A stretch of 42,552 nucleotides of DNA from a virus. The translations under genes and the position numbers were made by a program. Location of the stretch: positions 1-42,552 of IMG/VR virus record IMGVR_UViG_3300020438_000081. One strand, written 5' to 3'. The notes beneath the pieces were generated by a model. It did no database searches. It was not told the DNA's origin and saw only the letters and a program-made list of their open reading frames with translations. Below, piece after piece: positions 1 to 42,552 of this stretch (positions within the stretch are counted from its first letter, which is position 1; each line of letters opens with the position of its first letter).

Positions 1-3000
1 ATAAAAGGTAATGGCGTTTCCATCACCATCCTTTAAAGTGTCGGCCTCGGTGTAAGTTGAGCCTTCCTCGAGCTCTACCTGTTTCGAGAACTGGGTTTCG
101 CTTTTGGCTTCGCGGGCCTTCTTGACTTTGCCGATTCGTCGGGCAGACTTGGCAAGGAGCCGTTTTCTAATATCTTCAGCAAGCGAACCTGCTTCGCCAG
201 AAGCGAACCCGAGGTCGCCTGTTGCGCTTGCAACGTCTTTTCCGCCATCGAAAGAAGTGATTTTCTGTCCATATCCCGCGTCCCGTAAAAGTTTAGTATA
301 TCTGGGTTCGTTCTTGAATAGTTGCGCAAAGTCGGGAGCTTCGCCAACTTTTTCGTCGGTGATCTCCCCGGACTCGAGAACGTCCAACGGCGTCTTGCCC
401 TCGGTCGCCATCTCATAAAGTACCTTCGCCCAGGACCAAATGGTTTCCTGGACTTCCGCGGGCGTCCATGATTCGCCCGTCAATTTGGTAAGGTAGGTGG
501 CGGTGGCTCGCACTCGGGCCGTCATGGCCAGGTAACCGAAACCTTTGCCGGGATCGGCCTTCGGATCGGCGGGATCGCGTTTGCCCGCAACCGACAACGA
601 TCCGCCGAAAACTTTTTGGTCAATCGCCGCGAATATGGCCATCCATGTATCGTTCGTCACTTCATGGGCAAAGCCCATTAAATTAAGCATGAACGAATTC
701 ACCTTGGGCCCCGAAATCGTAGGCGGGCGGCCCCCGTGCTTCACGTAGTCGTGTTGCAGGGCCCGCACCGAATTGTTTTCCCAGGCTTCCAGAACGCTGA
801 CGCGAGCGATCCTTTCCTTGAACGCTTGCACCGACTTGCGGTGCGCATCGGTCATTCCCATCACGGGAGTCGTAGCCAGGCGAAAGGCCCGCAATAAGTT
901 TTCCTTGGTCTTGTCCGCCTGGTAGTCGGACCAGGCTTGCTTGTAGTTTCTTGTCGCTCCCGTCTTACGCTTGGCCATGCCCGACAATCGGGCGGACAGG
1001 TTCACCGTGCCGGCGAGCTTCTGCAAGTTGTCCAAGGGCCTGGACTCCATGGGAGTGGACTCCACGCTATCGGCCATGATCCGCAAGATGCTTTCCTTGT
1101 CGGTCGGCCGCCCCGCGGAAAGCCAATTTTTCCAAACGGCCAACGCATTCAACAAATTGGACTCAACGGACGTTTGCGGGCTCAACGCCGCAAGCAACGC
1201 GGCGAACCGAGGCGCGTCGTCCTCGAAGAATTCCTGGAGCACCGAAACCGAATTCTCGTACCATCCCCGCTTCGCCTGGCCCGCCTCGGCCACGGCCGCC
1301 ATCTCGCGAACGCTCGGCAATTTATCGAACAGGTCCACCAACTTAACAGAAGTTGTCTTATTCGGCTTGGCCGCTTCCGTGGGCGTCAAATGCTTGGCCA
1401 CCCTGGTCGGCAAGTTCGTTTTCTTCCTGGCTTCCTTGCGAGCTCGAGTCTGGGGCACCACCGGCGACGCCGAGGTCTTTGAGTAAAGAGTCATGTCGTC
1501 GGTGGCCCGGCGAACCTCTTCGGTCAAATCGAAATAGTGTATGCCTTCGTCTTGCAACCCGGTTGCAGTTTCCAAGATACCCGTCTCATGGCGGACCTTG
1601 ACGCCCGTGCTCTTCAAGAGTTTGTTCGCCTTGTTCACCAGGTCACGGTCGTAGAAATTTATAAAGGGCATCTCACCCACCTTCACGCCGCCGTCGGGTA
1701 GCTTGACTCGTTCGACGCCGTCTTTCATCTTGGCCAGTACCTCGGCCCCGAACCAAAAGGCGATTTCCTTGTCGTCGTAAACTTCCGCCTTGCGATACTG
1801 TTTGCCGTCGGGGTAAATCGTCCAAAATCCCTCGGCGTTCTTCTGGTCATACTCCAAGTAACCGCCCGTTTCCGCTAGACCATATTCCGTGACCTTGTCG
1901 TAACGCTCGTTATGGGCCATGCCGTCGAGCCAGGCAACGCGATCGAGGCCGTTCAGCTTGGCCAACTGGATCGCGTATTTCAGAGCCAACAAGCTCCAGT
2001 TCTTACGGAAAGGCGCGGTGGCGTCGTTCTGTTCAACACTCTCCTTGGACTGAGAAATATCCCAAGGTGGTCGCTCCAGTAACGGCACCCTCGCTCTATC
2101 AAGGAGCTCATCAACTGCCTTGGCTTGAGCCTCCGTAAGGCCCTTGAATTCCATCTTGGCCCCGTCCTCGCCCGACTCGATTCGACCGTAATCAATGAAA
2201 TTGGCGTCCACGTGGTCCAGGCCGTACATTCCTATGTTATCCAATATCGCATCGGCCGCCTTGTCCGACATTTTAAATACTGCTGAAAAACTGCCCTGGA
2301 CGGCGTCGCCACCTGGATAACCGGCCAACGGAGATATTTCCTTTTCCGCCTTTGCGGTTTCCTCGGCCAGGACTTCTTTCATCCTGGCGTCGTAAGCCCG
2401 ATCCCATTTTTTAAACTCGGGACTGTCAGCTACCATTTGACTCATTGTTTCACGAGGAAGCCGGACGCCCGTCCTCCACATCATTTTATCCGCAAAAATT
2501 CGCCGGGCCGTCAAGATTCCACCTTTCACGCCGCCGAACTCAAACTCTTTCATTCGCTCGCTCGTCGCCTCTTCGGCCAATTTCTTAACTTCTTTATCGC
2601 GCAGTCGCTTCGCTCCCTGGTGGAAGTCCGATTGAATCTCCTGGATCAGCATGGCGTTACCGATCCCTGGCAAGAAGCGTTGATCGAAACGAATGTGAAA
2701 AAGCTCTCCCTGGACTCCAAAATGCGGGCCCGTGTAATTGACTCTACCCGGATTCGTTACCGCGACCGCGGCCTCGGTGTAATTCTCACCGCCGCCCAAG
2801 GTCACGTTGTAACCCGAATTAACTCCGTATCTAGAAGGGTTTACGTCATGGTGCCATGGCCGATAAGGAATGCCGAGTTCGTGAATCGGACGACCGCCCT
2901 TGAAGGCGCGGGCCATACCGATCTGCGGCTCTTCTTCCAGATACCGTTCGACGTCATCCATCGGATGAGGTTCATCCATAAACCAACGCTCCCGAAGCTG

Positions 3001-6000
3001 CGGGGTAAGCTCCAGGGCTTTTGCCTCGAGGTCCAGGCGAGTGATCTTCTTTTGCCCGCGGGCCCAGGCCGCCAGGCCCGTTTCCTCGGCTTCCGCGGCC
3101 GCTCCCGCGGGCCCAGGCTTCTTGCCCAGACCAACGGCCGAAAGGAACTGTTCTCCTGTGAACGTGCCCGGTAGATTCGGGATCACCTGGTCGAACAAGG
3201 TGGACTTCATGCCCAAATGTTTTTCTTGCGCGGTCTCCGAGGCCGTTTCACCATGTTCCCCCGTTGGAACCGTGTCCGACTTACTAAACAAAGTCATGTC
3301 GTTCTTTATGAAATTCTTAACTTTTTCATCCCTCAAATCCACGGACATCGCAGGGAAAGTGGGCCCGTCGTCAGTTGGCCTGTGAGGCTCTCCTTCCTTG
3401 GCTTCCTCCATCCCCATTAGCACCCCGTCCATAAAGTACGTTATCTCGCTTATTTCTCCATAAGACGAATTAGGCGTTATTCGGTGATCCATATTCACCT
3501 TCGCCTTTACAGGTTTCAAACTGCGCTGAATTATATTCTTCACCTGGTTGTCGTACATGGCCCGCTTGCCGCCTTGGCGAAAGACCATGCGCTCGGCCTT
3601 GGTCAGCGGATCATATACCACGGCCCGCGGATCAAGTTCCTTCAACGCTTGTACCGACAAAACAAGCGAGCGCGTACCTTCGGGCCATGTAAAATTACCT
3701 TTTATCCATTCCGCCATTTCAGCGTCCGGGGCCAAGGCTCCCGCCTTGAGCCATCGTTTCACCTGGTCGAATGAATTCTTGTTGAGCCCGTTTCCTAGAC
3801 CTGGCCCCAATTGGGCCCAAGCTCGATCGGAATAACCGTCTTTATTCCAACGGCCCATTCCTTTCGTTTCCCCCGAATAATTTACCGCGGTGCCCAAAAG
3901 GTTACCGTGAGCATCTTCGCGAACAATCAATTTTTCCGCGCCATGATTCCCATTGTTTCGCCGCGCTTGAGCATATCCCGGTGTCCACGAAAAGAATGCC
4001 ATGCCATCTTCGACGGCCGCCCGAAGCTCCGCTCGGATCGCTACGCCTAGCCAATGCTTCGATGCCATTGGGTTGAGATTGGACGCAGTCTGACTTGCAA
4101 CTTCACGCTTTAGAGCCGAAGCGGGCGAGAGAGAGTCCTTAAAGTCCTTTAGGCTTACCGCAGACGATAGTTTTCGAGAGTTTACGACTACAAAACCTTT
4201 TTTCTGCAAGAACTCGGCGTCATTCCTGGGCGGCTTCATCCAAAGTTCCACCGGCGCCGACATTCTAGATTCGGCATCCGTCCAAGCTCGGCCCTGGGGA
4301 GCGTAAAGCAAGTACAAACTGGTTTCATTGCTACCGATAAAGTTGTCCGCGACCCAAACTAAATTCTTATAGCCGATTTCCGAGATCGGTTTATGCAGAA
4401 GATCGCCTAACTGAACGGGTTCCAATTCCTCCAGGACAGAAATGTCGCCGGGCACCAAAGTATGTAGCCCGCGCATGACGTTGTCCTTTCCCACGTCGCT
4501 TTGAAATTCCTCGATGAAACGGACGTCCCAACCATCAGCATCCACTTTGTCTTTCCCGCGGACCCAGAACGGCATGGCGGTATCACCGGAGTAGGCGTGA
4601 TTGTAAACTGACCCGGCCCATTGCGGTTGCTCGTACACCGCTTCGTAATAAGAGGAGTCGTCTTGGTCCCCCTCCATCGTGTACTCTTCCCATTTTGCAC
4701 CGCCTTCTTCTTCTTCGATTCTGGCCTCGGTGTTGCCGATCCAATCCGTTTCGTAAGCCTCGGTCTCATACCAATGATCGGTATCGAATTCCTCTTGAAT
4801 CAACCCCTGTTCCAGAAGTTGCTCGCGAGCCAATGAATCAAATTTTTCGTAATCGGGCTTCTTGTCGGGAGTTTCCTCAAACCAAGACTCCGACGCATAG
4901 GAATTCAGTACCGACTCGGGCATATTCTCGAACATACCTTCCTCTTCTCGCCATTCATCGACCAATTCTTCGGCACGTTCATCGACTTCGGCTTCCACCA
5001 TTTGAGCCCATTCTTGTTGGGCTTCTTCAAAGGCGGTGTCCCGCAACCTGTTTTCTATTTCGTCCAATCCTTCTTGAGCGGACTCCTGGTCATAGTAACT
5101 TTCCACGAAATCACCATCCTCGTCGTACAAATTCCATTCCCCACCGCTCTTTTCGGTTCTGACGTTACGGACAATTCGCAAGCCTGGCCCGGTCTGTATT
5201 TGATTCATCCAGGATTCAATCGCGATCGCGGGCACCGACTTTGATTGTTTCGGACCAGGAACACTCCAATTGTAGTGTGCGGCCGCGGCCCTGGCGGCGG
5301 CTCCCTTCGGGCCGAGCTCGCCTAATTCTTTCGCAAATTGCTCAATCGCCTTGTCGGCGGCCTCCCGCGAAAGGAACTCGCTCGTCCGCTCCGCCGGTAT
5401 CGGAAACGGTGTTGTCTTGCCCGCGAATTCGCCCCCTATATCAAAAACCACAAAATACTTCGCGCTTGACGGCATCTGACTGACGCGGCCGCGACTTTCA
5501 ACCACCAACCTTTTCTTTACTTGGTCCAGAGATAGCGGGTTTTTGATGGGATCGAATTGGTTTTCCCAGAACGCATCCGGGTTCATCCACTCGTACATGG
5601 CCTGGGCCCCTCGAGTGTTCTTGACCATGGACTCGAATTGACCTCTCGAGACCTTGCCTTTCAGCTTCGGCAAAATCACTTCGGTCATGGGGTTCACCAG
5701 TTCCGCCGCCTGGGCCTTCGAGAAAAGCGTTTCGGTCGCTTGAGCCTTGTGCGGGTACGCCAACGAATCTCTCGGGTTGCCCGTGGCATTCGCCAGGGAA
5801 ACATGAAACTCGCGATCCTGGTCCACGGGTTCACCGTGAAGTTCCTCCTGGTAGTTTCGCATTTGCTCTTGCTCGCGAATCCGAGAATACCAACTGGACT
5901 TCTTGCCATCAGTTCTTTTCTGAGGAGCCTCGAGAGTGATCGGGAAATTTGGCGGCGCCACCGCGTAATCCCTTTCGGGATCGGAAAACTTTTGATTCAC

Positions 6001-9000
6001 CAGGGTAACGTGAAGCGACTCCTCACCGATCGCCTTCACCGAGCCATCAGTCTCGAGAATCCTCGATTGCAACTTCTTGGCTTCGCCCAAAACTTCCGAC
6101 GGCAAACTTAATTTTACTATGCCCGAATCCGTTTTAGCGACCGCGCCCTTCGAGAATTGCGTCTCGGCCGTGGCGGCCGCTCGTTCGCGGTTGGCTATCT
6201 TGCGGGCCCTGGCCAGGACCGCCTTGTTCGCCTGGGTCGCTCGAGCTCCCAGGGAAAGGGCGCCAAGCACCTGTTGGTCGGTAAAGCTTTCCACGCCGTC
6301 CAGGAATACTTTTTTATCTACCTTGCCAAAGAGGTTCTTGCGGGCCCAGGCGGCCAGGCCCTTGGCTTTTTCGGTCCGCATTGAGTCCATGTTCTCGGAG
6401 AGCTTGGCGACGAACTCCTTGGCGAGCAGTATGCGTTTGCCCACCGGTATCTTTTCCCCCGCGGTAAAAGCCGCTTGTTCTTCCTCGCTCAAATAATTCT
6501 CAACCAGGCCGTCAACGATGTCGGCATAGTCGGGATCATTCAAAAACTTGGACGCCACGCGGGCGTAAAAACGATTCTTCATTTCCCCCAGGACTTCCTC
6601 GGTCCCGACGTGACCGACCACTTCGTGATCGAATACCTGGGCTACGCGATCCGCGTTACGGAAAGCACCGTCACGCAAGTAAACTTTTCCTCGCCTGGTG
6701 AATCCTTCAACGGCCGCACCTTCGTCTTGGAGTTCAATTGCCAAAGCTTGAGCGTCAAGCTCGGCGTCGGCCGCCTCCTCAACTCGCTTGGCGGCCTCGG
6801 GGCCCGCCTCTCGTCGAACAGTCTGCCAAGCCTTTTCTCGCCGTCTGAGCGCGCTTTCGATTTTCGGGTCAAGACTTCCCACTTCGACGCCCAAAGCCGC
6901 AGTCTGCTGAAAATCCTCCAACGCCCTGGCAAGTTCATTGCTCGCCTCATCGAACTCCTTTTGGGCTTCGGCCGTAGATTCCTGGAGCATGGCCTGTTTC
7001 GCCTCGGATTTAGCCACCCAGGCCGACCGAACGATTTCCGACGGGTCAGTATACACCATTACGCCGGGCGCGTTCGTTCCCAGGGCATCCACCTTTTTCT
7101 GGACGGCGGCAACAATTTCGCCGCGGGTCAAAGTCTGGTCTTCGGGTTTGGTGTGCGTGTCCGGCGGTAAATTATTCTGCGAGTCCTTCGAGAACTCTCC
7201 CAAATCCTGTTTCTGTAGCTCAACGAGCTCGTCCAGGATCGCTTGTTCGTCCGCCGTCGGTGTAGCGTCCAGGGCTTCCTTCAACGCTCCTTCCTCTCGG
7301 GCTTGTTCCATGATCGAGCTCGGGTCGTTCTCGGCCGCCGCGAGCTCGTCCATCAACTTCTTGGCCTCGGCTCCTTCGGGCTTCGCCAAAAATTCCTCGA
7401 GACTCATCCCTTTCTCGGCCGCATAGTCTTCTATCGCCAAACTCACTTCCTGGCGGTATGCCTTGACCTCTTTACCTAGAGATCGGTTTACCCTGGCATC
7501 ACTCACGCCGTAAACGGCCGTCGCCACTTCGGCCGGAGTCGTCCCGATCTCGGCAATGATCTCATGGAATATGGCCATGCCGTCCGTAACCTCTCCATCC
7601 AAGTAAAACTGCTTGGCCGCTTCACCCATTCCACCACCGGACATTTGCAGGGCCATCTCCAGGCCCGCCTTGGTTGCTACACGACTTTTCTTGAAGTTGT
7701 TTAAGGCCCGCATAGGCATCTTTGCAAACTGCCCCGCCAGGCCCGCGGTAATCGCGTCGAAGCTTCCGACGATTACGCCCGCGGCGTTAGCGTCGGACTT
7801 CACCTGGTCCCAGAGTTTCGGGTCTTTGATCATATCCCGAAAAAACTGGCGGACTTGAGACGGGTTTGATGCGTCGTACCCGTGATCTAGCATCTCATGC
7901 ACTATATGACTGCCGTATTCCATTTGATGCGAGGCCGCGAACTGGCCGCCCATTATGCCCGGCAATCCTCCCGCCGCCTTTCCGATCATGCCCGCCATTA
8001 CCGAAACGGCCATCGGCCCGGCCGACTCACCCATGATATTAGCCACGTTCTCGATCGGGTTCGACATGAAGGTGACGAAGCCCGGATCGTTCATAAAATC
8101 CTTGTACCCTTTCGAGTAATAGCCCGCTATATAATTCTTTAGTTCCTCGTTCTCGGCCAGAATGGAGGCCCAACGCTTGACCTGCCTATAGCGAGCAGTC
8201 CGAATCTTCTTCCTGTTCGACTCGGTCGCCAGGATACCCTCGGTCGGACCAAAGTTTTCCCTGGGCCCAATCCAATTTCTACCTGGCTTGTTCAGATCAT
8301 CTACCCCGCGTTGCCCAAGCGAGGCCGAGATCGCCTGGCCGTATTGCCCAGGCTCAACGCCTTCGGGCATCTCGATTTCCCTGCGCATGAACTGGCCTTT
8401 GAGATTACTTCTCCAGGCGTCCGCGGGAACGTATTCACCGGTCTTAACGTCTAAAACTCGATCTACCATGTACGGATTGGAAGCGGCCCCGGCGGTCACT
8501 CGATCCCTGGGAGGCATTCCCTGGACGCGACCCATGTTCGACGGGGTAAGTATGTCCGTTTCGTTGATGAAGCGGGCGGGCGAGTACATTACGGGATCGA
8601 GAGTCTTGTTGGTTCGATCCCATTCCTTCCGCTGATATTCGATCGCGTCGTAAATTTGGCTCAACTCATTGGCCGCGTCGCCCGATCGCAAACCATACAG
8701 ACTTCGCTTCATGGCCATCCATACGCTTTGAAATTCGTTTGGCTCGGCGGTGTTGGCCGCGGTCGGCGCCGGCTCCCCCGCAACTTCCTGGGTTGCGGGT
8801 TTCGATGGTTGTTGCCACCAGGGATCAATGTTGCCGCCGTCTCCATTACTACCTGCGCGACGGGCCCGCAAGGATTCCAGGTCTTTCGCCATCCTGGCTT
8901 CCTGGGGATCGTCGGAATTCAAAAACTGCTTGTGGTATGTGGGGTGATCCCGATCCTTTCCCGTCGAGCCCCAATGCCAGGAGTCGTCGAACACTCGGAC

Positions 9001-9276
9001 CCCATTCACCATCCTCCCGACCTTGTCGGGAACAATCTCGGGGCGATCGCCCGCCTTCCAGGCTTTTCGATAATCAAATTGTTCCTGGGGATCGTCCGGG
9101 CTTTTAGGAACGTCGCCGCCCATGAGATCGATCCGCCAATCCTGTACCGCCGCGTCCTCGGCCCAGAATTTTTGAAATTCCTCTTCTTCTTGCGGCTCCA
9201 AGGAAACTCTGGACGGTTGATACGCGGCATCCATATCGGCCGACAAGGACCGAAGTCTAGTTAGGTTGATCGCCAC
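1..9276 (-). CDS. Giant modular ejected (polyvalent) virion protein, N-terminal 3092 residues; continues at 42552
   Basis: The frame is open to base 1 and resumes in phase at 42552, so this is the first part of a protein of about 4254 residues. GTG 9276 lies just after the upstream stop; ATG 9234 is the alternative, and neither has a clear Shine-Dalgarno. Visible modules, by residue from GTG: Gly/Ala-rich hydrophobic stretches near 415-445 and 495-516; a zincin-like HEVVGH at 884-889; a 2H-phosphoesterase-like module between about 1044 and 1184 with HVT (6012-6004) and HVS (5805-5797); very acidic segments near 1405-1540; two related modules marked EEFQSD (residue 1589) and EIQSD (residue 2213), each followed by a W-x2-G-x5-R motif; and a module with AALSPQTSVESN near 2695. 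Five T-[QL]-[FY]-S-K motifs sit at module borders. Such multi-enzyme architecture is known from polyvalent proteins of short-tailed phages that are injected with the DNA. The role is inferred from architecture and position after two other internal-virion-type genes. Confidence 0.85.
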   Translation of the reverse strand, partial: MAINLTRLRSLSADMDAAYQPSRVSLEPQEEEEFQKFWAEDAAVQDWRIDLMGGDVPKSPDDPQEQFDYRKAWKAGDRPEIVPDKVGRMVNGVRVFDDSWHWGSTGKDRDHPTYHKQFLNSDDPQEARMAKDLESLRARRAGSNGDGGNIDPWWQQPSKPATQEVAGEPAPTAANTAEPNEFQSVWMAMKRSLYGLRSGDAANELSQIYDAIEYQRKEWDRTNKTLDPVMYSPARFINETDILTPSNMGRVQGMPPRDRVTAGAASNPYMVDRVLDVKTGEYVPADAWRSNLKGQFMRREIEMPEGVEPGQYGQAISASLGQRGVDDLNKPGRNWIGPRENFGPTEGILATESNRKKIRTARYRQVKRWASILAENEELKNYIAGYYSKGYKDFMNDPGFVTFMSNPIENVANIMGESAGPMAVSVMAGMIGKAAGGLPGIMGGQFAASHQMEYGSHIVHEMLDHGYDASNPSQVRQFFRDMIKDPKLWDQVKSDANAAGVIVGSFDAITAGLAGQFAKMPMRALNNFKKSRVATKAGLEMALQMSGGGMGEAAKQFYLDGEVTDGMAIFHEIIAEIGTTPAEVATAVYGVSDARVNRSLGKEVKAYRQEVSLAIEDYAAEKGMSLEEFLAKPEGAEAKKLMDELAAAENDPSSIMEQAREEGALKEALDATPTADEQAILDELVELQKQDLGEFSKDSQNNLPPDTHTKPEDQTLTRGEIVAAVQKKVDALGTNAPGVMVYTDPSEIVRSAWVAKSEAKQAMLQESTAEAQKEFDEASNELARALEDFQQTAALGVEVGSLDPKIESALRRREKAWQTVRREAGPEAAKRVEEAADAELDAQALAIELQDEGAAVEGFTRRGKVYLRDGAFRNADRVAQVFDHEVVGHVGTEEVLGEMKNRFYARVASKFLNDPDYADIVDGLVENYLSEEEQAAFTAGEKIPVGKRILLAKEFVAKLSENMDSMRTEKAKGLAAWARKNLFGKVDKKVFLDGVESFTDQQVLGALSLGARATQANKAVLARARKIANRERAAATAETQFSKGAVAKTDSGIVKLSLPSEVLGEAKKLQSRILETDGSVKAIGEESLHVTLVNQKFSDPERDYAVAPPNFPITLEAPQKRTDGKKSSWYSRIREQEQMRNYQEELHGEPVDQDREFHVSLANATGNPRDSLAYPHKAQATETLFSKAQAAELVNPMTEVILPKLKGKVSRGQFESMVKNTRGAQAMYEWMNPDAFWENQFDPIKNPLSLDQVKKRLVVESRGRVSQMPSSAKYFVVFDIGGEFAGKTTPFPIPAERTSEFLSREAADKAIEQFAKELGELGPKGAAARAAAAHYNWSVPGPKQSKSVPAIAIESWMNQIQTGPGLRIVRNVRTEKSGGEWNLYDEDGDFVESYYDQESAQEGLDEIENRLRDTAFEEAQQEWAQMVEAEVDERAEELVDEWREEEGMFENMPESVLNSYASESWFEETPDKKPDYEKFDSLAREQLLEQGLIQEEFDTDHWYETEAYETDWIGNTEARIEEEEGGAKWEEYTMEGDQDDSSYYEAVYEQPQWAGSVYNHAYSGDTAMPFWVRGKDKVDADGWDVRFIEEFQSDVGKDNVMRGLHTLVPGDISVLEELEPVQLGDLLHKPISEIGYKNLVWVADNFIGSNETSLYLLYAPQGRAWTDAESRMSAPVELWMKPPRNDAEFLQKKGFVVVNSRKLSSAVSLKDFKDSLSPASALKREVASQTASNLNPMASKHWLGVAIRAELRAAVEDGMAFFSWTPGYAQARRNNGNHGAEKLIVREDAHGNLLGTAVNYSGETKGMGRWNKDGYSDRAWAQLGPGLGNGLNKNSFDQVKRWLKAGALAPDAEMAEWIKGNFTWPEGTRSLVLSVQALKELDPRAVVYDPLTKAERMVFRQGGKRAMYDNQVKNIIQRSLKPVKAKVNMDHRITPNSSYGEISEITYFMDGVLMGMEEAKEGEPHRPTDDGPTFPAMSVDLRDEKVKNFIKNDMTLFSKSDTVPTGEHGETASETAQEKHLGMKSTLFDQVIPNLPGTFTGEQFLSAVGLGKKPGPAGAAAEAEETGLAAWARGQKKITRLDLEAKALELTPQLRERWFMDEPHPMDDVERYLEEEPQIGMARAFKGGRPIHELGIPYRPWHHDVNPSRYGVNSGYNVTLGGGENYTEAAVAVTNPGRVNYTGPHFGVQGELFHIRFDQRFLPGIGNAMLIQEIQSDFHQGAKRLRDKEVKKLAEEATSERMKEFEFGGVKGGILTARRIFADKMMWRTGVRLPRETMSQMVADSPEFKKWDRAYDARMKEVLAEETAKAEKEISPLAGYPGGDAVQGSFSAVFKMSDKAADAILDNIGMYGLDHVDANFIDYGRIESGEDGAKMEFKGLTEAQAKAVDELLDRARVPLLERPPWDISQSKESVEQNDATAPFRKNWSLLALKYAIQLAKLNGLDRVAWLDGMAHNERYDKVTEYGLAETGGYLEYDQKNAEGFWTIYPDGKQYRKAEVYDDKEIAFWFGAEVLAKMKDGVERVKLPDGGVKVGEMPFINFYDRDLVNKANKLLKSTGVKVRHETGILETATGLQDEGIHYFDLTEEVRRATDDMTLYSKTSASPVVPQTRARKEARKKTNLPTRVAKHLTPTEAAKPNKTTSVKLVDLFDKLPSVREMAAVAEAGQAKRGWYENSVSVLQEFFEDDAPRFAALLAALSPQTSVESNLLNALAVWKNWLSAGRPTDKESILRIMADSVESTPMESRPLDNLQKLAGTVNLSARLSGMAKRKTGATRNYKQAWSDYQADKTKENLLRAFRLATTPVMGMTDAHRKSVQAFKERIARVSVLEAWENNSVRALQHDYVKHGGRPPTISGPKVNSFMLNLMGFAHEVTNDTWMAIFAAIDQKVFGGSLSVAGKRDPADPKADPGKGFGYLAMTARVRATATYLTKLTGESWTPAEVQETIWSWAKVLYEMATEGKTPLDVLESGEITDEKVGEAPDFAQLFKNEPRYTKLLRDAGYGQKITSFDGGKDVASATGDLGFASGEAGSLAEDIRKRLLAKSARRIGKVKKAREAKSETQFSKQVELEEGSTYTEADTLKDGDGNAITFY

Positions 9277-18280: not shown

Positions 18281-19717
18281 TTAAGATGGTATTGAATTAG
18301 TGTATGTGGGGGCATTTACAACAGTCGCATTGCCTTGACCAGACCCTGTGTTCGCACTGCCTTGATTTACTATTGTCCCTACAGTATCAGCGTTTGCCGG
18401 TGTGCCTCCACCAGAGTCCGTATCGCCAGGGCCGTCCCCAAGTCGCCACCACGCTACTGGAAACAAAGAGTCTATGTCGGGCGGAACGCCATCATTGTAG
18501 ACAACGTGAATTTCTTCGGCGGTAAGGCACGTGTGGAACATCGCTATCTCGTCCATTTTTCCGTTCCACCACCGGGGTATAGTATTATCACCAATGGTTA
18601 ATCCGTATGCTCCGGCGTTAGAACTAGTGGCACTTGTGGTCGTGTTGTTTTCTTGTGTGCCGTTTACGAATAATTTTACGCCGTTAGTTACTCCGACATC
18701 CACGGTAAAAGCTACGTGATACCAAGTGCCAGTACTCAGAGTCGTGCTTCCGCTCACAGTAACTCCGCTCCCAAAATATAAAGTTAATTTACTGCCACTC
18801 ACGGCAAACTGCCAATCGTAGCCGCCCGTTCGTTTCGCCGCGATAGCTTCATACGAACTTAAATCGTCTGCATTGATCCACGCGGTAAAACTCCAATCCC
18901 CCGCCGTATTCAACGAAGCGTTAGCGGCGATAGCTAAATAGTCATCCGTGCCGTCAAAATCTACACCTAGAGAATTCGTTTGAGGGGGCAAAACGTAGGG
19001 TACTTTGGAGCTATAAGTGGGGCCATTCGTTAAAGTGCCATCGTTACTGCCTCCACTTCCTTGGTTGGCAATGGTATCACCAGAGCTTCCATTAATGTCT
19101 CCCATTCTATACCAGTAATCCGGCGACAATCCCTTTAGGTCTGCCCCGAGTCCAGAGTTATAAATAGCCGCAAGGTTAGAGGTTTGGTCGGATCCCCAAA
19201 AAGCAATTTCGTCTAAATACCCATTCAATGCCGTATTTCCTGCGGACGAGTACGCCGCAAACTGTGAAAATTCAGCCGTGCCTGTAAAAGAACTGTTGCT
19301 CCCTTGTTGCGAATTATCTACCCACATTTTCACCACATTTGAACTGTCGCGAATTATCGCAATATGATACCATACACCGGCTTTTGCGGCTCCGGCAGTC
19401 CCGTTTATAGTTCCCATATTTCGTAGCACCCAACTGTTTCCATACGCCGCTCCGTACCAATCTAGCCAAGGGCCGGAAGCCCCACTAGTCCCAGCGGAAA
19501 TCCATCCTTCATTGCCGGATACTGGATGGACCCAAATGCTGAAAGTAAATGCCCCTGTGTACTCAATCTGAGAAGCAAGCTGCATATTGTCATTCGTTCC
19601 GTCAAAGCGAACGCTTGCGGAGTTGGTGTATGAAACGCCGCCAATGGGTGCGCCGGAGCTAGTACCTGCCGACCCGGCCGCGAGTCCAAGACTCACACTA
19701 TTTACTCCAAGTGACAT
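18281..19717 (-). CDS. Surface adhesin-type virion protein with two LamG/concanavalin-like domains
   Basis: This is a 478-residue protein from ATG 19717, which overlaps the preceding stop as TAATG; the in-frame extension to a TTG at 19738 is less likely. Two similar jelly-roll domains are visible. The first (about 36-200) has SVRFDGTNDNMQLAS, FTFSIWVHP and GYLDEIAFW. The second (about 258-420) has GVDFDGTDDYLAIAA, WSFTAWINA and GKMDEIAMFH. The FDGTDDYL / FSIW / W-Y-H-x-A / DEIA series is the LamG-like (Laminin_G_3) signature, a fold that binds sugars or other ligands. The gene is visibly AT-richer than its neighbours and uses more A/T-ending codons, suggesting later acquisition or exchange. 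A role in host attachment or virion decoration is inferred. Confidence 0.8.
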   Translation of the reverse strand: MSLGVNSVSLGLAAGSAGTSSGAPIGGVSYTNSASVRFDGTNDNMQLASQIEYTGAFTFSIWVHPVSGNEGWISAGTSGASGPWLDWYGAAYGNSWVLRNMGTINGTAGAAKAGVWYHIAIIRDSSNVVKMWVDNSQQGSNSSFTGTAEFSQFAAYSSAGNTALNGYLDEIAFWGSDQTSNLAAIYNSGLGADLKGLSPDYWYRMGDINGSSGDTIANQGSGGSNDGTLTNGPTYSSKVPYVLPPQTNSLGVDFDGTDDYLAIAANASLNTAGDWSFTAWINADDLSSYEAIAAKRTGGYDWQFAVSGSKLTLYFGSGVTVSGSTTLSTGTWYHVAFTVDVGVTNGVKLFVNGTQENNTTTSATSSNAGAYGLTIGDNTIPRWWNGKMDEIAMFHTCLTAEEIHVVYNDGVPPDIDSLFPVAWWRLGDGPGDTDSGGGTPANADTVGTIVNQGSANTGSGQGNATVVNAPTYTNSIPS

Positions 19718-19983
19718 TAGCTTCGATAAATCAAGCAAGCACCGGAGTTGTCGATTTGAACACTCTGAAAACGGCCGTAGATAACTTCGCCGCTACTAAA
19801 TTCGTGATTAGCAGAAATTAACGCCGCGGAATTTTCCATATTGCCCGTCAATGCGTCGATCTGAGTGGTCTTTAAGAATTGAATAGCGTAAAAATCTCCG
19901 GCCACCGCGGTGTCGGAATTTACGAAAACAGAACCGTTGCCACCGGTTAGATTGCGAACGTTTACGTTTGGTGATGTTGCCAT
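19717..19983 (-). CDS. Small virion-associated protein (putative)
   Basis: This is an 88-residue protein. The sequence SDTAVAGDFYAIQFLKTTQIDALTGNMEN and SSGEVIYGRFQSVQIDNSGACLIYR resembles small beta-rich phage proteins in which an x-AG-x2-I-YG-x-F-x3-L-x-SG-x3-AY pattern closes the chain. These are often encoded among head or tail genes and may trimerise on the virion surface. The start ATG 19983 follows the connector stop by twelve bases, and the stop overlaps the LamG protein start. The resemblance is from memory, so the call is tentative. Confidence 0.6.
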   Translation of the reverse strand: MATSPNVNVRNLTGGNGSVFVNSDTAVAGDFYAIQFLKTTQIDALTGNMENSAALISANHEFSSGEVIYGRFQSVQIDNSGACLIYRS

Positions 19984-21793: not shown

Positions 21794-22795
21794 TTAAGTT
21801 GCGTTGACGGCGATCAAGGACAATGGATTGTCAACCATGAGCATAAACAAGGCGTCGATGATCCTTTTATGGCCACCCCCTTGGTACTCTTGATTAACTA
21901 CCCGCGGAAGCCTGGTGTAGGCTAGGCCGCACATACTCATGTCCATGAATATGCCGCTCTTGTGAGTCGTTGCTGAATCGGCTCCCGTGTCCTTGTCGGT
22001 TTTCAGAAAGCTCGAGACGTGCAGACGGTATCGGCCAGAGTCGAGAACCAAGGCATCAATGGTCGAAACCAGTTCGCGATCCTTTTGATTTCCACTCAAA
22101 GTCCGAACAGGCGTGTAATTAGTCACGTCTGCTTGGTAAGTCGTAAACTCGGTGAAGCGTCGCTTGAGCTCGATGCCGCAAAAGCCGTCTAAGGAAACCT
22201 GGCCTTTTCTTTGCTTGTACGCGGATTCGCCCAAATCACCCATGTCGTCCTCGTCGAAAGTCGCCAACGTCCCGGCGTACTTGGAAGCCGCGGGAGTCTG
22301 GAAGTTCGATGGAACCGCTTGAATCGTGAAGCTACTGTCGGACCATTTGAAGGCCCCGCGAGTTTCGTTACCTTGGGCAACTCCATCGTCGCGGACCGCT
22401 TCAGCGTTCGACAAGCAACGTTTCTCGATCATGCGCTTAAGCGTGATTAACCCCTCGGCCGTTTGCGCTCGAATTGCCGACCCGGAAACCCCTGCCTGGT
22501 GGGCGGCGTCTTCCATGAAATCGGAAACCCCGACGTTGTACCAAAGTTTTTGAGACGTCCCGATAAGTTCCTCGGCCTGGTTGGAATTGAACTCGGTGGC
22601 GTCGAGGCCATCGAGAACTCCGGTGTGGCCGACGGTCGGATACTGCTTGGCTTGCCAGTAATGTGTGACCTGGGCGGGCTTGGTTCGCTTGGCGACCATA
22701 GATGTGAATGGTGTGGAATCGCTCTCGATAACGGATATGAGATCGGCCCAATCGGTAGGTTTCGCAACCGCGGTGCGTTCGTAAAGAATAGCCAT
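21794..22795 (-). CDS. Major capsid protein (SU10/phiEco32-like family)
   Basis: This is a 333-residue protein. Near the N-terminus it has DLISVIESDSTPFTSMVAKR, followed by HYWQAKQYPTV and, around residues 75-140, the stretch ELIGTSQKLWYNVGVSDFME. A run of alternating charged residues (LKRMIEKRCLSN) precedes the central domain. The series L-x-x-I-x-x-x-x-TPF, W-x-x-x-x-Y, N-x-x-Q-E and V-S-x-x is what I know from the SU10/phiEco32 type of HK97-fold capsid protein (the DUF5309 group). Length is typical. It follows the scaffold gene and precedes the probable decoration gene. AGGAG lies about 13 bases before ATG 22795, a slightly long spacing. Confidence 0.85.
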   Translation of the reverse strand: MAILYERTAVAKPTDWADLISVIESDSTPFTSMVAKRTKPAQVTHYWQAKQYPTVGHTGVLDGLDATEFNSNQAEELIGTSQKLWYNVGVSDFMEDAAHQAGVSGSAIRAQTAEGLITLKRMIEKRCLSNAEAVRDDGVAQGNETRGAFKWSDSSFTIQAVPSNFQTPAASKYAGTLATFDEDDMGDLGESAYKQRKGQVSLDGFCGIELKRRFTEFTTYQADVTNYTPVRTLSGNQKDRELVSTIDALVLDSGRYRLHVSSFLKTDKDTGADSATTHKSGIFMDMSMCGLAYTRLPRVVNQEYQGGGHKRIIDALFMLMVDNPLSLIAVNAT

Positions 22796-27303: not shown

Positions 27304-27481
27304 CTTTAATGATTTTTTCTTTTTGTCGTTGGCGGGCCGCCCGATCAATACAGGAACCCATATCCCACCGCGGTGGAGTCATTCCCCTTCGCTCATAAAA
27401 GCGAGCATAACCAATTTCGACCTGGCGCTTAAATTCAGCCCATTTATCTGAACCATGATTTCGTTTCTTTTTAGTACCCAC
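27278..27481 (-). CDS. Small basic protein after the portal gene (start uncertain)
   Basis: This is about 67 residues if it begins at GTG 27481, which overlaps the portal stop by 11 bases. The frame stays open upstream inside the portal gene, but that part is a shadow. It reads GTKKKRNHGSDKWAEFKRQVEIGYARFYERRGMTPPRW and ends in a Lys/Gln-rich tail. It is very basic, suggesting nucleic-acid contact. No Shine-Dalgarno is present, so translation may depend on portal termination. Whether it is expressed is uncertain. Confidence 0.45.
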   Translation of the reverse strand: MGTKKKRNHGSDKWAEFKRQVEIGYARFYERRGMTPPRWDMGSCIDRAARQRQKEKIIKDVLPQKEN

Positions 27482-29705
27482 CCTGTTGCCCGGTTGATTG
27501 ATTATCCAATCCAGGCCGAGCCCCAACTCTCCCAATTTGGGCGTTCTCTCTTTGTTGAACCATGTGGCCCAAATGCTTGAGCCTTGCTTGTAGGATCGCG
27601 ACCGAGTCTTCGGACAATCTTTCAACGGCCGCGGGATTTTGCTCCGCGATGCCGTTGAGCACCTTTGCTCGCAAATCGTAATTTTGTCCTTCGGGTTGCA
27701 TGGGCGGCTCAACGCCGGCGGCAATGAGAGCGAAATTCTTCATTTCGTCATCCACTTCCTTAGCCGAAGCGGCCTCCACGGGTTGCAGTACGTCGTCGGC
27801 CATATTCGGATCGATGCCCGCGAAGAGCCTGGAAACGATCTGGTCTCGTTGGGCCGTGCCCAGGGTATCCATGGGCAAGATATATTTCCCGATCACTTCA
27901 GCTTTTTTAATGACTTGCTCGGCGTCCAAATCCTTGGCGTCAAAGACAACCTGGAGATCAAATTTGCCCTGGATTTCAGCAGTCGAGTTGGCCATTGGAA
28001 TTCCTTCCTTTGATCCCGTAATCCTGGTGATCGTCTCTTGATCCATGTACTGCTGAATAAGTTGCAGGGCCATAAGGAAGGTATCCTTGAGACTCGCCAG
28101 GAAGCGATCAGCCATATCCTGGACGTGAAGTTGCGTGATCGCGGGCGGCACCGAATCCGAGAAGCGGCCGAAGTACGTGTCGATCATTCTTTCGACGTCC
28201 ACCCTCGCTTTATCATTGGCATTCGGGTACGCCGGCGGATTCATAAATTCTATTTCCCCAGGGCGGCCTTCTTTGATTTGCTTGAGCGGACCGAGAGCCA
28301 TGCCTTCGTTGGGCCTAGACTTAGGCACTTTTACAGGCGGCACCGTCGTCAATTGAACATGGGCCCCATATGAATCCCAGAATATTTTTTGCAGCTTCTG
28401 CATGGACATCGAAAGCTCGGGAACGCTCCTGGAATCCCATAACCTTGAGGTAAGAGTTTCACGCCCGAACCAGACAAACGGATAATCGCCATGAGCGTAA
28501 GGCAGTAGTTGCCGAGGCTTGGCCGCTTCGTCTACGTTCACGTGAAAGCAAGTATAGTATACGCCTGGAATGCCATCGTCGTTGCTTGCTCGATGGTAAG
28601 CGGTAACCTGCTCGAAGAGTCCGCGACGCGCCCGATCGTCAGGCGTTTTTATGACCAATTGGTTATCCACGAAATCGGAATATTCGTAATTCGGAAACCC
28701 CGTTTCGCCCTCATGCTTTAGCACTTCCTCAACATACTTCTCGGAGTAATCGTGCGTAAATGTCCGCTCCCGCAATTCCACTTCGGTCAACCACTCTCGA
28801 ACGTATATCACTCGAGCTCGCTGAATATCGTGAACGTTTGAACTAAAAAAGACATCCTCGAACATTCGATGCGTAGTCAACTTGAGACCGTTCTTGCGAA
28901 CATAGGGCCGAGGATATTCGGCTTCGGTCGAAGGTACGCCATCGACCACCACCATGTTTTCCCGTAATTCCTTCGCCATCCTTTTTGCAGTCCTGCGCTT
29001 CAAATGCGGTAGGCCGCCCATAATAATGTCGGCCACCCTGTTGTCACCTTCCTTGTCCTGGAAGAGCCCAATGAATTCCTCGGCATACCCTTCCACCTCG
29101 GCACCTTCCTCAACCCTGGCCGAAGCCATGTAAAATTCTAGAACCTCCTCGAGACCGAGCGTTGCCCGCTCCAGGGCAACTTCGCGATTCCAATATATTC
29201 CCATGAGGGCCCCCGCGGGAACATCACCCTCTTGGTATTGGGCCATACGCTCCAGGGTTCGACGCCAGGATGAACCGAGTTGGTTCTCGAGCACCCATCG
29301 AAGGACGATCGTCAAATAAGCCCCAAGCCGCATATCGCGGGATTCGGTCCCCTTCACCGTGACCTGGGCCCTGGTAGCGGCCGCAACTAAAATCTTGGCT
29401 CGCTCGTTGACCAACATATCGGCGGTCCTAATTCTCGAGTCGGGAGCACCTTCAAAAGGAAACGCCTCTTTGCCGTCCAAGTCCGCCGAGTGGACCAGGC
29501 CGTCGGAACTCTGACCAGGCCAACGACAATATCGCGCGTCATTCGCGTCGGATCGACGAGCATTCACGTCGTAAGCGGCGTCTTGCATTATTTGATCCAT
29601 CTCGTTTTTCAAGTTGGTCAATTCAGCCTTAGTGGGATCGGCCGCCGAGCCGTCTCCCGCAAGTCGATCCACACCAATTTTAACTTTCTCTTGTTCCGTT
29701 TCCAT
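27471..29705 (-). CDS. Portal protein
   Basis: This is a 744-residue protein. The N-terminal 120 residues are acidic and helical, a mixed alpha/beta core follows (with TVPPVKVPKSRPNEGMALGP near 440), and a long helical C-terminal region has QDMADRFLASLKDTFLMALQLIQQY near 525-550, matching the crown and stem of podovirus portals. Length is typical of P22-like portals (about 700-750). The strong sequence GGGGGGAGAAA precedes ATG 29705. It follows terminase and a small HTH gene, the usual order. The dodecamer would form the DNA entry channel and hold the head-tail connector. Confidence 0.8.
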   Translation of the reverse strand: METEQEKVKIGVDRLAGDGSAADPTKAELTNLKNEMDQIMQDAAYDVNARRSDANDARYCRWPGQSSDGLVHSADLDGKEAFPFEGAPDSRIRTADMLVNERAKILVAAATRAQVTVKGTESRDMRLGAYLTIVLRWVLENQLGSSWRRTLERMAQYQEGDVPAGALMGIYWNREVALERATLGLEEVLEFYMASARVEEGAEVEGYAEEFIGLFQDKEGDNRVADIIMGGLPHLKRRTAKRMAKELRENMVVVDGVPSTEAEYPRPYVRKNGLKLTTHRMFEDVFFSSNVHDIQRARVIYVREWLTEVELRERTFTHDYSEKYVEEVLKHEGETGFPNYEYSDFVDNQLVIKTPDDRARRGLFEQVTAYHRASNDDGIPGVYYTCFHVNVDEAAKPRQLLPYAHGDYPFVWFGRETLTSRLWDSRSVPELSMSMQKLQKIFWDSYGAHVQLTTVPPVKVPKSRPNEGMALGPLKQIKEGRPGEIEFMNPPAYPNANDKARVDVERMIDTYFGRFSDSVPPAITQLHVQDMADRFLASLKDTFLMALQLIQQYMDQETITRITGSKEGIPMANSTAEIQGKFDLQVVFDAKDLDAEQVIKKAEVIGKYILPMDTLGTAQRDQIVSRLFAGIDPNMADDVLQPVEAASAKEVDDEMKNFALIAAGVEPPMQPEGQNYDLRAKVLNGIAEQNPAAVERLSEDSVAILQARLKHLGHMVQQRENAQIGRVGARPGLDNQSTGQQGGY

Positions 29706-39063: not shown

Positions 39064-42000
39064 TTACCGGCTCAACATCTCCTGGCGAAACGCTTCGCCA
39101 CCCTGGGTTCTTGATTGGGCCCGCAATCCCTTAGTCTTATGGTGCGCCGCTCGGATAGCATCCACTTCGCGGCGAATCGCGCCGGGTTGCTTCTCCAACC
39201 TCCGAACCCGTTTCTTGGCCGCGTCTCGAGCTCGGCCGAGTTGCTTATCCACCTTATCTTTAAACCCGTCTATAGCGGCCACCTCGGCCACCTCCAGGTC
39301 TTTTCCGATTAACTTGCGGTCGATGCCGTCCATGCCCGCGTCAAAAAGCTTGCCGTCGGCCGAATAGTTCTCAAGGCGGCGGCGGAATTCACGGCCCACG
39401 TAATAGGAAAAGAGATAATGAGCTTCCTCGAGCTCCAAAGTGGATTTACCCTCTTCCTTATTCAATACCCTAGTCTGCTTGCTCGGAGACCGCGGAATGT
39501 AATGGTTTTTTACCAGTTGGTCCATAATTGGATCGGCTTCACCCGTCGCTTTCTCCAGGCGATCCAGGAAGCGTTCCCCAAGAGTGCCCTCGAACCTAGT
39601 CGAAGGTTGGCCCCATATGTTGAGATCGGGATAACCCTTGCGCCTGGCAAACCATACGGAGCGAGCCCAGGCGCCGTTTAATTCGTTCTCCGAATACTTC
39701 GTAGGATCGAAGAGCTTGTCCACCTGGTTGATCATATTTGGAATTACGAACGACGCCGAAGTATCTTTCGCCATGCGAAAAAGTTTGTCGCCCGCTCGAG
39801 CGTCGCCGCGGAGAATGTCGAACATATCCTGGCCGCCGCGAAGGAAGGTTTGATCAAATAGAGATTGGCCGGCAACCAGGGCGGCGGCGCCAAGCCGCGA
39901 ACCTAGATCGCGTTGCGTAAAGTCACCAAACTTTCTAGCGTCGTGATACCCACCGAGAAACGCCAATGGAATCGCCAAAGGTGATTCACCATAATTGAAT
40001 TGTCGGCCGAATAGCGTAACGGTCCATGGACGCCAGGCCGTCGTATCCATCAAAATCTTTCGGTCTTGGTAATCCTTGGGCCCGCTTCCCGTAATGGCGA
40101 ACTCGGGATCATCGTCGTCCTCATATTCCAAGAACAGGGCCTCGAGGGCCGCCATTAGAATCGTTCCCTGGAGATTCCGCATCATCATGTTGTTGAGTTG
40201 CTCCCTTGTCTTGGAATTCTTATAAGCGCTCAACGCAATCCGCGTGGTCCCAATGCCAGGAGTGTATTCAATTGCGGTGTTCGCCACGTTCGCAATCGTG
40301 TTCACGAACGGCACGAAAACCTGGCCAATCTTTTGAGCAATCCACCGTTCCGGCCCTATACTTTCGCCAGGCGTCAATCTCGGATGAATGACCCAGTTCA
40401 ACATACCGGCCACCACCCCGATCACGCCGTCGGGCTCCTGTTGGAAAACCGACTCCAAAGCAAACTGCTGAGTTTCCGCCTGTAAATCGGCGTCTCGCTT
40501 CTGAAGCATGATCTCATCTTGCCGCCGCTTCACGTCGCGGCCTTCGAGACCTTCCGTTTCGGCCTGGGTTGCCGCTTCGGCTCGATCCGACTCGCTGATC
40601 TTCAAAATCTCTTCCACCTTCGTGGTAAGCTCTTCACCCGAAAGGCCCTGCTTCTTCGCTAATTGCCACGCGAGGAATTCGGAATACATCTCCAAATTTG
40701 CGAATCGGAAAAAAGCATCCATGGAAGCCAGGGCCCGCGTTACCCCTTTCATCCAGTTCATAGGATTCACCTTGCCGCCCGTGAACCGAACCCGCTCCAA
40801 AACGGGATCGACCTGGAACTTGCTTGCCTCGATTCCTTTTCGGCCTCGGCCCGTGGCCAGAACGTTGACCCCTTCCCGAAAGCCCGTTGCCAAACCTCGA
40901 GACATTCCCGCGAAAATTCTGAACAGGGCCGCGGGCCGCAACCCGGATCGCAAGGCCAGAGTGGAACCCGATAACGCCAGTTGAACGAAATTCGATGCTA
41001 TGTTGATTTCCTGGGTAGAGAAGCCCGACAACATATTCGCATAGCGAAAGGCGAACATTATATCCACTACGTTGTCGCCCACCTTGTTCGCCACCATGTT
41101 CAGTAGCTTTATGTTTAGGTCTTCCCGCTGAAACCCTTCCGGGGCCCGTTGTATTTGGTCCGCTAAATCTCCCAGGCGTTTCAACCAATTCGGATCATAT
41201 GCCTCGGGAAGTCCAAGACCTTGAGCCACCGCGTTGTAGACGTCTTCCCTGGAGAAGGCACCGAGGTTGGCCAAGGCTATTATCTTTTGTTCCTGGGTCT
41301 TGAGGGCCCGTCGAACCTTCGGGCTCGATGCCTTCAGCACCATGGCGTCCAGTTGCCGCTTCGCTTCCTTCTTTAATAATGCCTTATAGCTTTGACTGAA
41401 AGTCCTGGCGAGCTCGGCCGCGCCGCTATCGGTTAATCCGAGCTCGGCCATGATCCTGGCCTTGAGTTTGGCCTCGGTGGCGTCCTGTTTGGTAAAGTGA
41501 CTCCTGGCAAGTTCATCGAGGCGAAGCTGCATTTCCGCCAGTTCTTCCTTCACTATGCCCACCATCACCTTGTCGGACGCCTTATCAAAAGTTATCTTGC
41601 CCAGGACGGCGGTCACCGCGGCCAAGGTTTCGGGATCGCCTTCGTAGGTCTTGATCAATTCACGGCCGACCACTTCCCAGGTCTCGTCATACTTTTCGGG
41701 GTTCTCGAGCAGGTCCTTGAGCATGGCCTTGTTGTTTTCCTTGGTCGCTCCCGTCCGCTCGTCCGATACGCCTTCTTGCCGTAGCTTCTCGCGAGCGTGT
41801 CGCATCAAACGGAAAGTGAATTCAGCCAGGGCCGGCTTTCCCTTGCCATGCGGATTTTGCACTCCTGCGAAACTTCTATTGAATATGGAAAGAATCTTGG
41901 ACTTGGTCTCGTCCCGGTAGCGGCCCCAAACGGATTTGTCCGAACGCTTGTCGCGACGAACCACCGACGCGATCCGCTTGCGGGACGCCGTGGTGTTCGT

Positions 42001-42552
42001 TGCCCGCTTGGCGGCGCCGTCCTGGGCGTCTTCCAAGATGTCCGCCGCCTGGTCGGCCGCGTTCTCGGCTCCCTTTCGCCCGGTGATCGCCGCCCTGGTG
42101 CCCGCCATCTTCCGGCGTTGGGCCTTCGCGATCTCCTTCTTTGCCAGGCGGCGAAGGGAAAATGGATCTAAAAGAGAGAACGCCGAAAGTATCTGGACCC
42201 CTTGGCCCCACTCTCGGCCCATCTGTGAAAGTGAATTCGCCAGGTCCGCCGCCGCATCTGCCCGCTTGTCCGCCAAGTCTTGTCGGCCCAGGGATTCCGC
42301 CAGGCGAACGTTGGCCGAGGCCCGCAAGACCAATACCTGGCCGAGCATACCGCGGACCGCCGGCGTAAGGTCGTTGCTCATATCCTCAAATTGACTGCGG
42401 GCCACCACGTGACCTTCGTTGAAAATCTCCATTGCCTGGTCGAGCACCACCTGGTTGCCCAGGACTTCGTATTCGACCTTTACCTTGCCCTTTACCGAAT
42501 CGGGAATGCGGTCGTCTTCCAGGACGCGAACCGAAAGCTTGCCTCGGCCCGT
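39064..42552 (-). CDS. Giant modular ejected virion protein, C-terminal 1162 residues (continuation of the gene at 1-9276)
   Basis: The frame is open from the last base of the window; the first codon occupies 42552-42550, exactly in phase with the frame that ends at base 1. The stop is TAA at 39066-39064. The segment is mostly helical and basic or charged at both ends. In the middle, a region with LSGFSTQEINIASNF is followed by VPFVNTIANVANTAIEYTPG and then by WRPWTVTLFGRQFNYGESP. This series (T-x2-E/N-IASN; PFVNT; W-P-x4-G-x3-Y-x2-SP) resembles the C-terminal part of very large ejected proteins of short-tailed phages as I remember them. The last 60 residues are Arg/Lys/Gln-rich. A GTG at 42450 could be mistaken for a start, but codons upstream of it remain open to the window edge. 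The function is probably structural: anchoring inside the capsid or passing through the cell envelope with the DNA. That is inference. Confidence 0.85.
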   Translation of the reverse strand, partial: TGRGKLSVRVLEDDRIPDSVKGKVKVEYEVLGNQVVLDQAMEIFNEGHVVARSQFEDMSNDLTPAVRGMLGQVLVLRASANVRLAESLGRQDLADKRADAAADLANSLSQMGREWGQGVQILSAFSLLDPFSLRRLAKKEIAKAQRRKMAGTRAAITGRKGAENAADQAADILEDAQDGAAKRATNTTASRKRIASVVRRDKRSDKSVWGRYRDETKSKILSIFNRSFAGVQNPHGKGKPALAEFTFRLMRHAREKLRQEGVSDERTGATKENNKAMLKDLLENPEKYDETWEVVGRELIKTYEGDPETLAAVTAVLGKITFDKASDKVMVGIVKEELAEMQLRLDELARSHFTKQDATEAKLKARIMAELGLTDSGAAELARTFSQSYKALLKKEAKRQLDAMVLKASSPKVRRALKTQEQKIIALANLGAFSREDVYNAVAQGLGLPEAYDPNWLKRLGDLADQIQRAPEGFQREDLNIKLLNMVANKVGDNVVDIMFAFRYANMLSGFSTQEINIASNFVQLALSGSTLALRSGLRPAALFRIFAGMSRGLATGFREGVNVLATGRGRKGIEASKFQVDPVLERVRFTGGKVNPMNWMKGVTRALASMDAFFRFANLEMYSEFLAWQLAKKQGLSGEELTTKVEEILKISESDRAEAATQAETEGLEGRDVKRRQDEIMLQKRDADLQAETQQFALESVFQQEPDGVIGVVAGMLNWVIHPRLTPGESIGPERWIAQKIGQVFVPFVNTIANVANTAIEYTPGIGTTRIALSAYKNSKTREQLNNMMMRNLQGTILMAALEALFLEYEDDDDPEFAITGSGPKDYQDRKILMDTTAWRPWTVTLFGRQFNYGESPLAIPLAFLGGYHDARKFGDFTQRDLGSRLGAAALVAGQSLFDQTFLRGGQDMFDILRGDARAGDKLFRMAKDTSASFVIPNMINQVDKLFDPTKYSENELNGAWARSVWFARRKGYPDLNIWGQPSTRFEGTLGERFLDRLEKATGEADPIMDQLVKNHYIPRSPSKQTRVLNKEEGKSTLELEEAHYLFSYYVGREFRRRLENYSADGKLFDAGMDGIDRKLIGKDLEVAEVAAIDGFKDKVDKQLGRARDAAKKRVRRLEKQPGAIRREVDAIRAAHHKTKGLRAQSRTQGGEAFRQEMLSR

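Follow-up and report, generated by a model that had tools for sequence, protein, structure and literature searches.

Border tags in a giant polyvalent-type phage protein co-vary with embedded zincins and are candidate self-processing sites

The window analyzed here, that is, the whole stretch of DNA under study, is the complete 42,552-nt virus record IMGVR_UViG_3300020438_000081, and its element in question is a giant polyvalent-type open reading frame (ORF) in which, as an earlier note made from the sequence had pointed out, five T-[QL]-[FY]-S-K motifs (here called tags) stand where one module ends and the next begins. The giant ORF is open at the window end, and a second ORF at the opposite end of the record, into which the frame continues across the record ends, aligns to the C-terminal ends of the giant proteins L142 (1e-49), L144, and L156. 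Read from both record ends, the full-length protein is probably ~4250 amino acids (aa) in length. Possibly, the record is a circularly permuted genome with its opening inside the giant gene (39064-42552 plus 1-9276). The ORFs, modules, and tags are as follows.

9276-1, minus strand: giant polyvalent-type ORF with a GTG start, continuing past the window end after 3092 aa; assigned by homology to giant phage proteins
39064-42552, minus strand: likely C-terminal continuation of the giant ORF, 1162 aa, 5' open
7194-7186, minus strand: FSK in GEFSK, sixth border tag, aa 695-697, N-terminal of the zincin module; TOP-IDP 97th percentile
7185-6148, minus strand: zincin metallopeptidase module with C-terminal tag, aa 698-1043; predicted self-processing protease
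6627-6610, minus strand: HEVVGH, HExxxH zincin active site, aa 884-889; third ligand Glu954 near 6417-6415
6162-6148, minus strand: TQFSK tag, aa 1039-1043, end of the zincin module
6147-5716, minus strand: module 2 with tag, 2H-phosphoesterase-like by sequence reading only; LHVTLV at aa 1088, FHVSLA at aa 1157
5730-5716, minus strand: TLFSK tag, aa 1183-1187, end of the 2H-like module
5715-3280, minus strand: module 3 with tag, divergent EIQSD-type domain; EEFQSD at aa 1589, match to the family hidden Markov model at aa 1572-1931
3294-3280, minus strand: TLFSK tag, aa 1995-1999, end of module 3
3279-1477, minus strand: module 4 with tag, EIQSD-type domain; QEIQSD at aa 2212
1491-1477, minus strand: TLYSK tag, aa 2596-2600, end of module 4
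1476-82, minus strand: module 5 with tag; DUF7178/phrog_3842-like stretch at aa 2662-2722, Pfam match below the curated cut-off
96-82, minus strand: TQFSK tag, aa 3061-3065, end of module 5

All five full motifs lie in frame in the giant ORF and within 2 nt of the positions first given (the first copy starts at 6162, not 6160), with ET before or overlapping three of them and DM before two, as had been described; their intervals, put at ~145, 810, 600, and 465 residues, measured 144, 812, 601, and 465 aa. The earlier note overlooked the sixth border copy of the core, the FSK in GEFSK, as well as the fact that two copies end homologous domains and that the zincin sits between two copies. From composition, 0.004 copies of T[QL][FY]SK were expected where 5 were seen, and chance was set aside on this ground; [FY]SK was seen 7 times vs 0.79 expected, and [FY]S[KR] 8 times vs 1.47 expected (Poisson P 1.5e-4). 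The two [FY]S[KR] copies away from the borders, YYSK at aa 387 and WYSR at aa 1130, are inside modules and consistent with the chance background. The six border copies fall in disorder-prone sequence, with a mean TOP-IDP percentile of 0.84 (5 of 5000 random sets were as high). In AlphaFold models of the zincin module and of the module 4 EIQSD domain, which were built with alignments of related loci, the tag at aa 1039-1043 comes right behind the final helix of the zincin module, in a segment with a predicted local distance difference test score (pLDDT) <50, and the tag at aa 2596-2600 stands where the chain leaves the last EIQSD helix, ahead of another pLDDT <50 segment, which places these two copies at module borders. 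As in a self-processing polyprotein, a short site is repeated at domain borders. In their DNA, the flanks of the copies resemble each other no better than random (26-30%) and the codons differ (TTC TCG AAG three times, TTC TCG AAA, TTT AGT AAG, and TAC TCA AAG), including a TCN/AGY switch in the serine codon; the repetition is therefore at the protein level, and a DNA-level repeat as the source of the tags was set aside because of the same differences.

The modules between the tags are of disparate kinds: a zincin, two EIQSD domains, and, on weak evidence, a 2H-like and a DUF7178-like domain, which agrees with the several disparate domains of polyvalent proteins. Module 2 (aa 1044-1182) carries two H-x-[TS] motifs typical of 2H phosphoesterases and had no Pfam match. 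Modules 3 and 4 belong to the same family, which is recognizable by an E[IFL]QSD motif and whose domain ends in T..MR..G.PLF followed by variable residues, and the TLYSK at aa 2596-2600 is homologous in position to the G-x-P-L-F-x-x of other EIQSD domains; part of TLFSK and TLYSK is therefore inherited domain sequence. Since the other tags end unrelated modules, common descent explains only part of the repetition, and pure domain homology was set aside as the source of the tags because it covers two copies only. No close relative of module 4 turned up in a single-sequence search, and modules 3, 4, and 5 found nothing by tblastn against phages; only weak matches pointed to CP2, Dfl-JY45, and HTVC028P.

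In the zincin, the equivalents of H884, E885, H889, and E954 are invariant in 41 homologues, and the module has the HExxxH motif of the HEXXXH subgroup together with its Glu in the next helix. The core helices were confidently modeled by AlphaFold, and a Pfam MATCAP match to the module was sub-threshold. Structure searches with both models, that of the zincin and that of the module 4 EIQSD domain, gave no significant match, which for the zincin covered PDB folds.

Among relatives, a scan for the EIQSD family gave 71 viral loci, and scans for the ADP-ribosyltransferase (ART) domain ART-PolyVal raised the total to 364 loci. The earlier note had called for a search of related giant phage proteins for the motif, and FSR was indeed present at giant-protein borders in Dolichospermum phage Dfl-JY45 and Pseudomonas phage F116; [FY]S[RK] was in excess over expectation in L073 (11 vs 2.5), L152 (10 vs 1.9), L157 (9 vs 1.3), and L053 (8 vs 2.1). 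Over all giant proteins, FSR ranked only 124 in global tripeptide enrichment because most phages use another tag, and the search was therefore turned to such dialects. ART domains end in FDPxNPDI with a variable tag at once after, and the dialects comprise FS[RK], FA[RK], FS[LVI], [FY]Q or NILxQ, [RK]SxxR, and KxxGG (xxGG), the dialect being mostly constant within one phage and differing between phages. When the two residues after the aromatic were compared in the 19 non-redundant loci with both domains, the ART tag and the EIQSD tag of the same locus had a mean BLOSUM score of 2.83 vs -0.12 between loci (0/10,000 permutations), as exemplified by DIRFSLN/PLFSLN in L192, DIRFAPR/QFAPR in L182, and FAR/FAK in L136. 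Some zincin modules likewise end in the dialect of their own locus (FSI/FSI in L209 and FAR/FAR in L178).

Several loci stood out in these scans. L179, a Cupriavidus pampae prophage, has 14 copies of ART-PolyVal in a single locus, and an [FY]-[ASR]-R tag comes after almost every one of them. In L040, L048, L052, and L115, NILFQ or RILYQ follows ART, PLFQ follows EIQSD (L048), and the zincin is different (HELAHIFRR-like); we take these L-F-Q-like tags to resemble the specificity of the picornaviral 3C protease. The giant protein at L152:7202-16681 (plus strand) has ten FSR, most of them within the longer element FSR-x(0-5)-[FI]GPVEF. Tags of the form K-x-x-G-G were seen in L054, L061, L063, L067, L071, L075, and related loci, with DITKADGG after ART and AFKDGG after EIQSD.

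The pattern linking tag to zincin was first spotted by eye and then tested, with zincins found by pattern plus homology. Among 176 non-redundant loci, tag similarity correlated with zincin similarity once ART similarity was controlled for (partial r 0.255, 0/2000 permutations), and the zincin was a better predictor of the dialect than ART, the very domain that bears the tag. The partial r was 0.303 in the discovery set and 0.226 and 0.311 in a genome set and a second viral set (each 0/1000), both of which were fetched after the hypothesis was formed. With all other homology also controlled, the link between tag and zincin was 0.220 (0/1000), vs 0.051 for other homology given the zincin. Pairs of loci sharing a zincin but no other detectable homology had a tag similarity of 11.97 (n=29), vs 2.02 (n=580) for pairs with >200 bits shared elsewhere and no shared zincin, and -0.35 for pairs with neither. 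At equal BLAST score, a shared zincin segment went with about two- to five-fold higher tag similarity than other segments; this equal-bit-score comparison replaced a single-linkage clustering of all protein tiles, which merged neighboring domains, separated out no zincin family, and was unreadable. The link persisted when the tag stood 600 aa or more away from the nearest HExxH (0.233) and when it lay C-terminal of every zincin (0.230), indicating that the tag is not a linker traveling with the zincin; transfer of an ART-tag-zincin cassette was likewise set aside because of the association in these distant and C-terminal tags. At the level of motifs, [FY][SANR][RK] tags after ART were present in 24 of the 42 loci with an HExxxHx[GN] zincin vs 9 of the 145 with other zincins (Fisher P 4e-12). 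Site specificity thus tracks the embedded protease, as in a self-processing polyprotein; the comparison of tag spelling as a whole took in ~230 related loci. The window protein itself has no ART domain and hence lies outside the ART test, so that its FSK tags are an independent fit to the kinship of its zincin, which falls nearest to the HExxxHx[GN] group and to zincins of FS[RK]/FA[RK]-dialect proteins, most of the best matches carrying [FY][SAR][RK] tags.

Overall, these results support the reading that the FSK tags are recognition and cleavage sites of the zincin in the same giant protein, which would make it a self-processing polyprotein, and we put the probability of this reading at about 0.68. 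Recognition of the tags by the zincin is supported statistically; the cutting, the exact bond, and the timing are inferred. Each domain would be followed by a short flexible tag, and the zincin, flanked by tags at aa 695 and 1039, would cut at the tags, either in cis or in trans, while the head matures or once the protein has been injected; pieces of ~77, 38, 16, 92, 67, and 51 kDa plus a C-terminal piece would be released. In every phage lineage, a separate tag dialect would be matched to the zincin of that lineage. We lean slightly toward the wider proposal that the polyvalent giants of a great many phages and prophages are polyproteins that cut themselves, with diverged zincins reading the border tags as a co-evolving cipher and each phage cutting only its own cargo. 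The earlier note had offered protease processing sites, a packaging or sorting signal, or recombination joints; the co-variation of tag and zincin and the agreement across domains strongly favor the first.

A number of observations weigh against cleavage by the zincin. Binding without cutting would yield identical statistics, and the co-variation is strong in significance and moderate in size. Locus pairs are non-independent, which was handled by permutation only, in pairwise tests that are no substitute for a phylogeny, and many loci have two or three HExxH domains, any of which may be the responsible one. Strict FS[RK] tags occur in 18 of the 42 HExxxH loci, and a triplet of the same dialect follows the zincin domain in only 14 of 44 HExxxH zincins. 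The zincin profile gave no significant match to PDB sequences. The 113-kb record of L152, which has ten FSR tags, contains no zincin from the window's family, and these tags may have another protease as reader; the GG-dialect phages have no clear zincin, and theirs are possibly the sites of another protease class. Lastly, phage N4 packages its virion RNA polymerase (vRNAP) without processing (PMC5512222), and P1 DarB is listed among virion proteins at 250 kDa (PMC9024508). Since such polyvalent-type proteins can be full length in virions, the cutting, if any, may follow injection. In podovirus JC1, a giant DarB-like protein also belongs to the virion (PMC9144972).

The alternative that survives best, although we regard it as unlikely, is that the zincin binds the tags as docking or inhibitory sequences and leaves them uncut, so that, for example, the zincin or the packed modules are kept ordered and inactive until ejection. 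This would fit the same co-variation statistics, and N4 vRNAP, which is packaged uncut, has a metallopeptidase (MPTase) domain lying in a region needed for encapsidation (PMC5512222); on the other hand, cleavage is the more natural reading of one tag per module at the exit into a flexible linker, of tags flanking the zincin, and of a catalytic H/E/H/E set that is intact. It is improbable that the tags are linkers homogenized within a genome by module recombination or duplication, with no direct role in proteolysis. Module shuffling is rampant, and the longer border element shared within L152 (FSR-x-[FI]GPVEF) is as expected of copied linkers, but the random DNA flanks and the differing codons of the window tags, with their serine switch, argue against copying, and the dialect tracks the zincin, not other shared domains, even >600 aa away. 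The same flanks and codons, together with the fact that a recombination model predicts no link with one particular domain, speak against the recombination joints of the earlier note. Just as improbable as a full account is that the motif is the inherent C-terminal end of certain folds (T..MR..G.PLF of EIQSD, FDPxNPDI of ART), repeated through domain homology. This is partly true, since the domains that TLFSK and TLYSK end are homologous and PLF is conserved in their family without S-K; nevertheless, the residues past the conserved end vary between phages and match between unrelated folds in one locus, and in the window the zincin, 2H-like, and DUF7178-like modules carry the tag at their ends too. 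Reading or cutting of the tags by another factor that co-varies with the zincin (a separate phage protease, a host protease, or the packaging machinery) would accommodate L152 and the GG-dialect phages but is very improbable, since the zincin stays the better predictor once other homology is removed and no separate head protease was recognized among the window genes scanned with Pfam/PHROGs, which were part of the ORFs.

Self-processing through the tags would have parallels in known systems. Among eukaryotic RNA viruses, picornavirus polyproteins of the 3C type have an embedded chymotrypsin-like protease and a short site repeated at domain borders, with site and protease co-evolving; they share with the window protein the single polypeptide, the single embedded protease, and the repeated border site, cleavage being only predicted in the phage protein, and differ in that the protease is chymotrypsin-like and not a zincin and that a whole proteome is cut and not a virion or ejected effector protein. 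The prohead proteases of large phages (T4 and phiKZ) act on a short repeated motif with an acidic P1 residue. Their sites likewise mark processing in virion proteins by a short repeated motif, whereas the window tags are FSK and no separate prohead protease was recognized among the genes scanned. Closest are the polyvalent proteins with a zincin-like MPTase, for which Iyer et al. (2017) proposed autoprocessing by the zincins and noted the HEXXXH subgroup (PMC5512222). The window protein resembles them as a giant multidomain protein near virion genes with an HExxxH zincin and a downstream Glu; recognition sites, border tags, dialects, and tag-zincin co-variation were not found described there. 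P1 DdrB, DarA, and DarB are comparable as large injected antirestriction proteins. DdrB, which has a C-terminal MPTase, is processed before packaging, as cited in PMC5512222, and DarB differs in its N-terminal capsid-targeting signal (PMC9024508), with no repeated border tags described. Among open-access papers, none was found on the motif or on cleavage sites in polyvalent proteins; self-processing has already been proposed, and the tags, the dialects, and their co-variation with the zincin appear to be undescribed in the searchable open-access literature.

The role of the zincins of polyvalent proteins, and whether giant injected proteins get cut into parts, has been a question since their description in 2017, and the tags provide a residue-level, genome-wide prediction of the cut positions and of the responsible domain. 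In thousands of giant proteins that lack annotation, they would show where modules meet, and the zincin-tag pairs would supply a ready set of sequence-specific proteases that differ in specificity.

Elsewhere in the window, structural genes lie on the same strand as the giant ORF, which is thus encoded together with virion genes, as polyvalent proteins are.

21794-22795, minus strand: SU10-like major capsid protein, from the homology scan
within 27471-29705, minus strand: SU10-like portal, weak match

In the same structural region, two stretches of the protein encoded at 18281-19738 (minus strand) match Laminin_G_3 (concanavalin-like).

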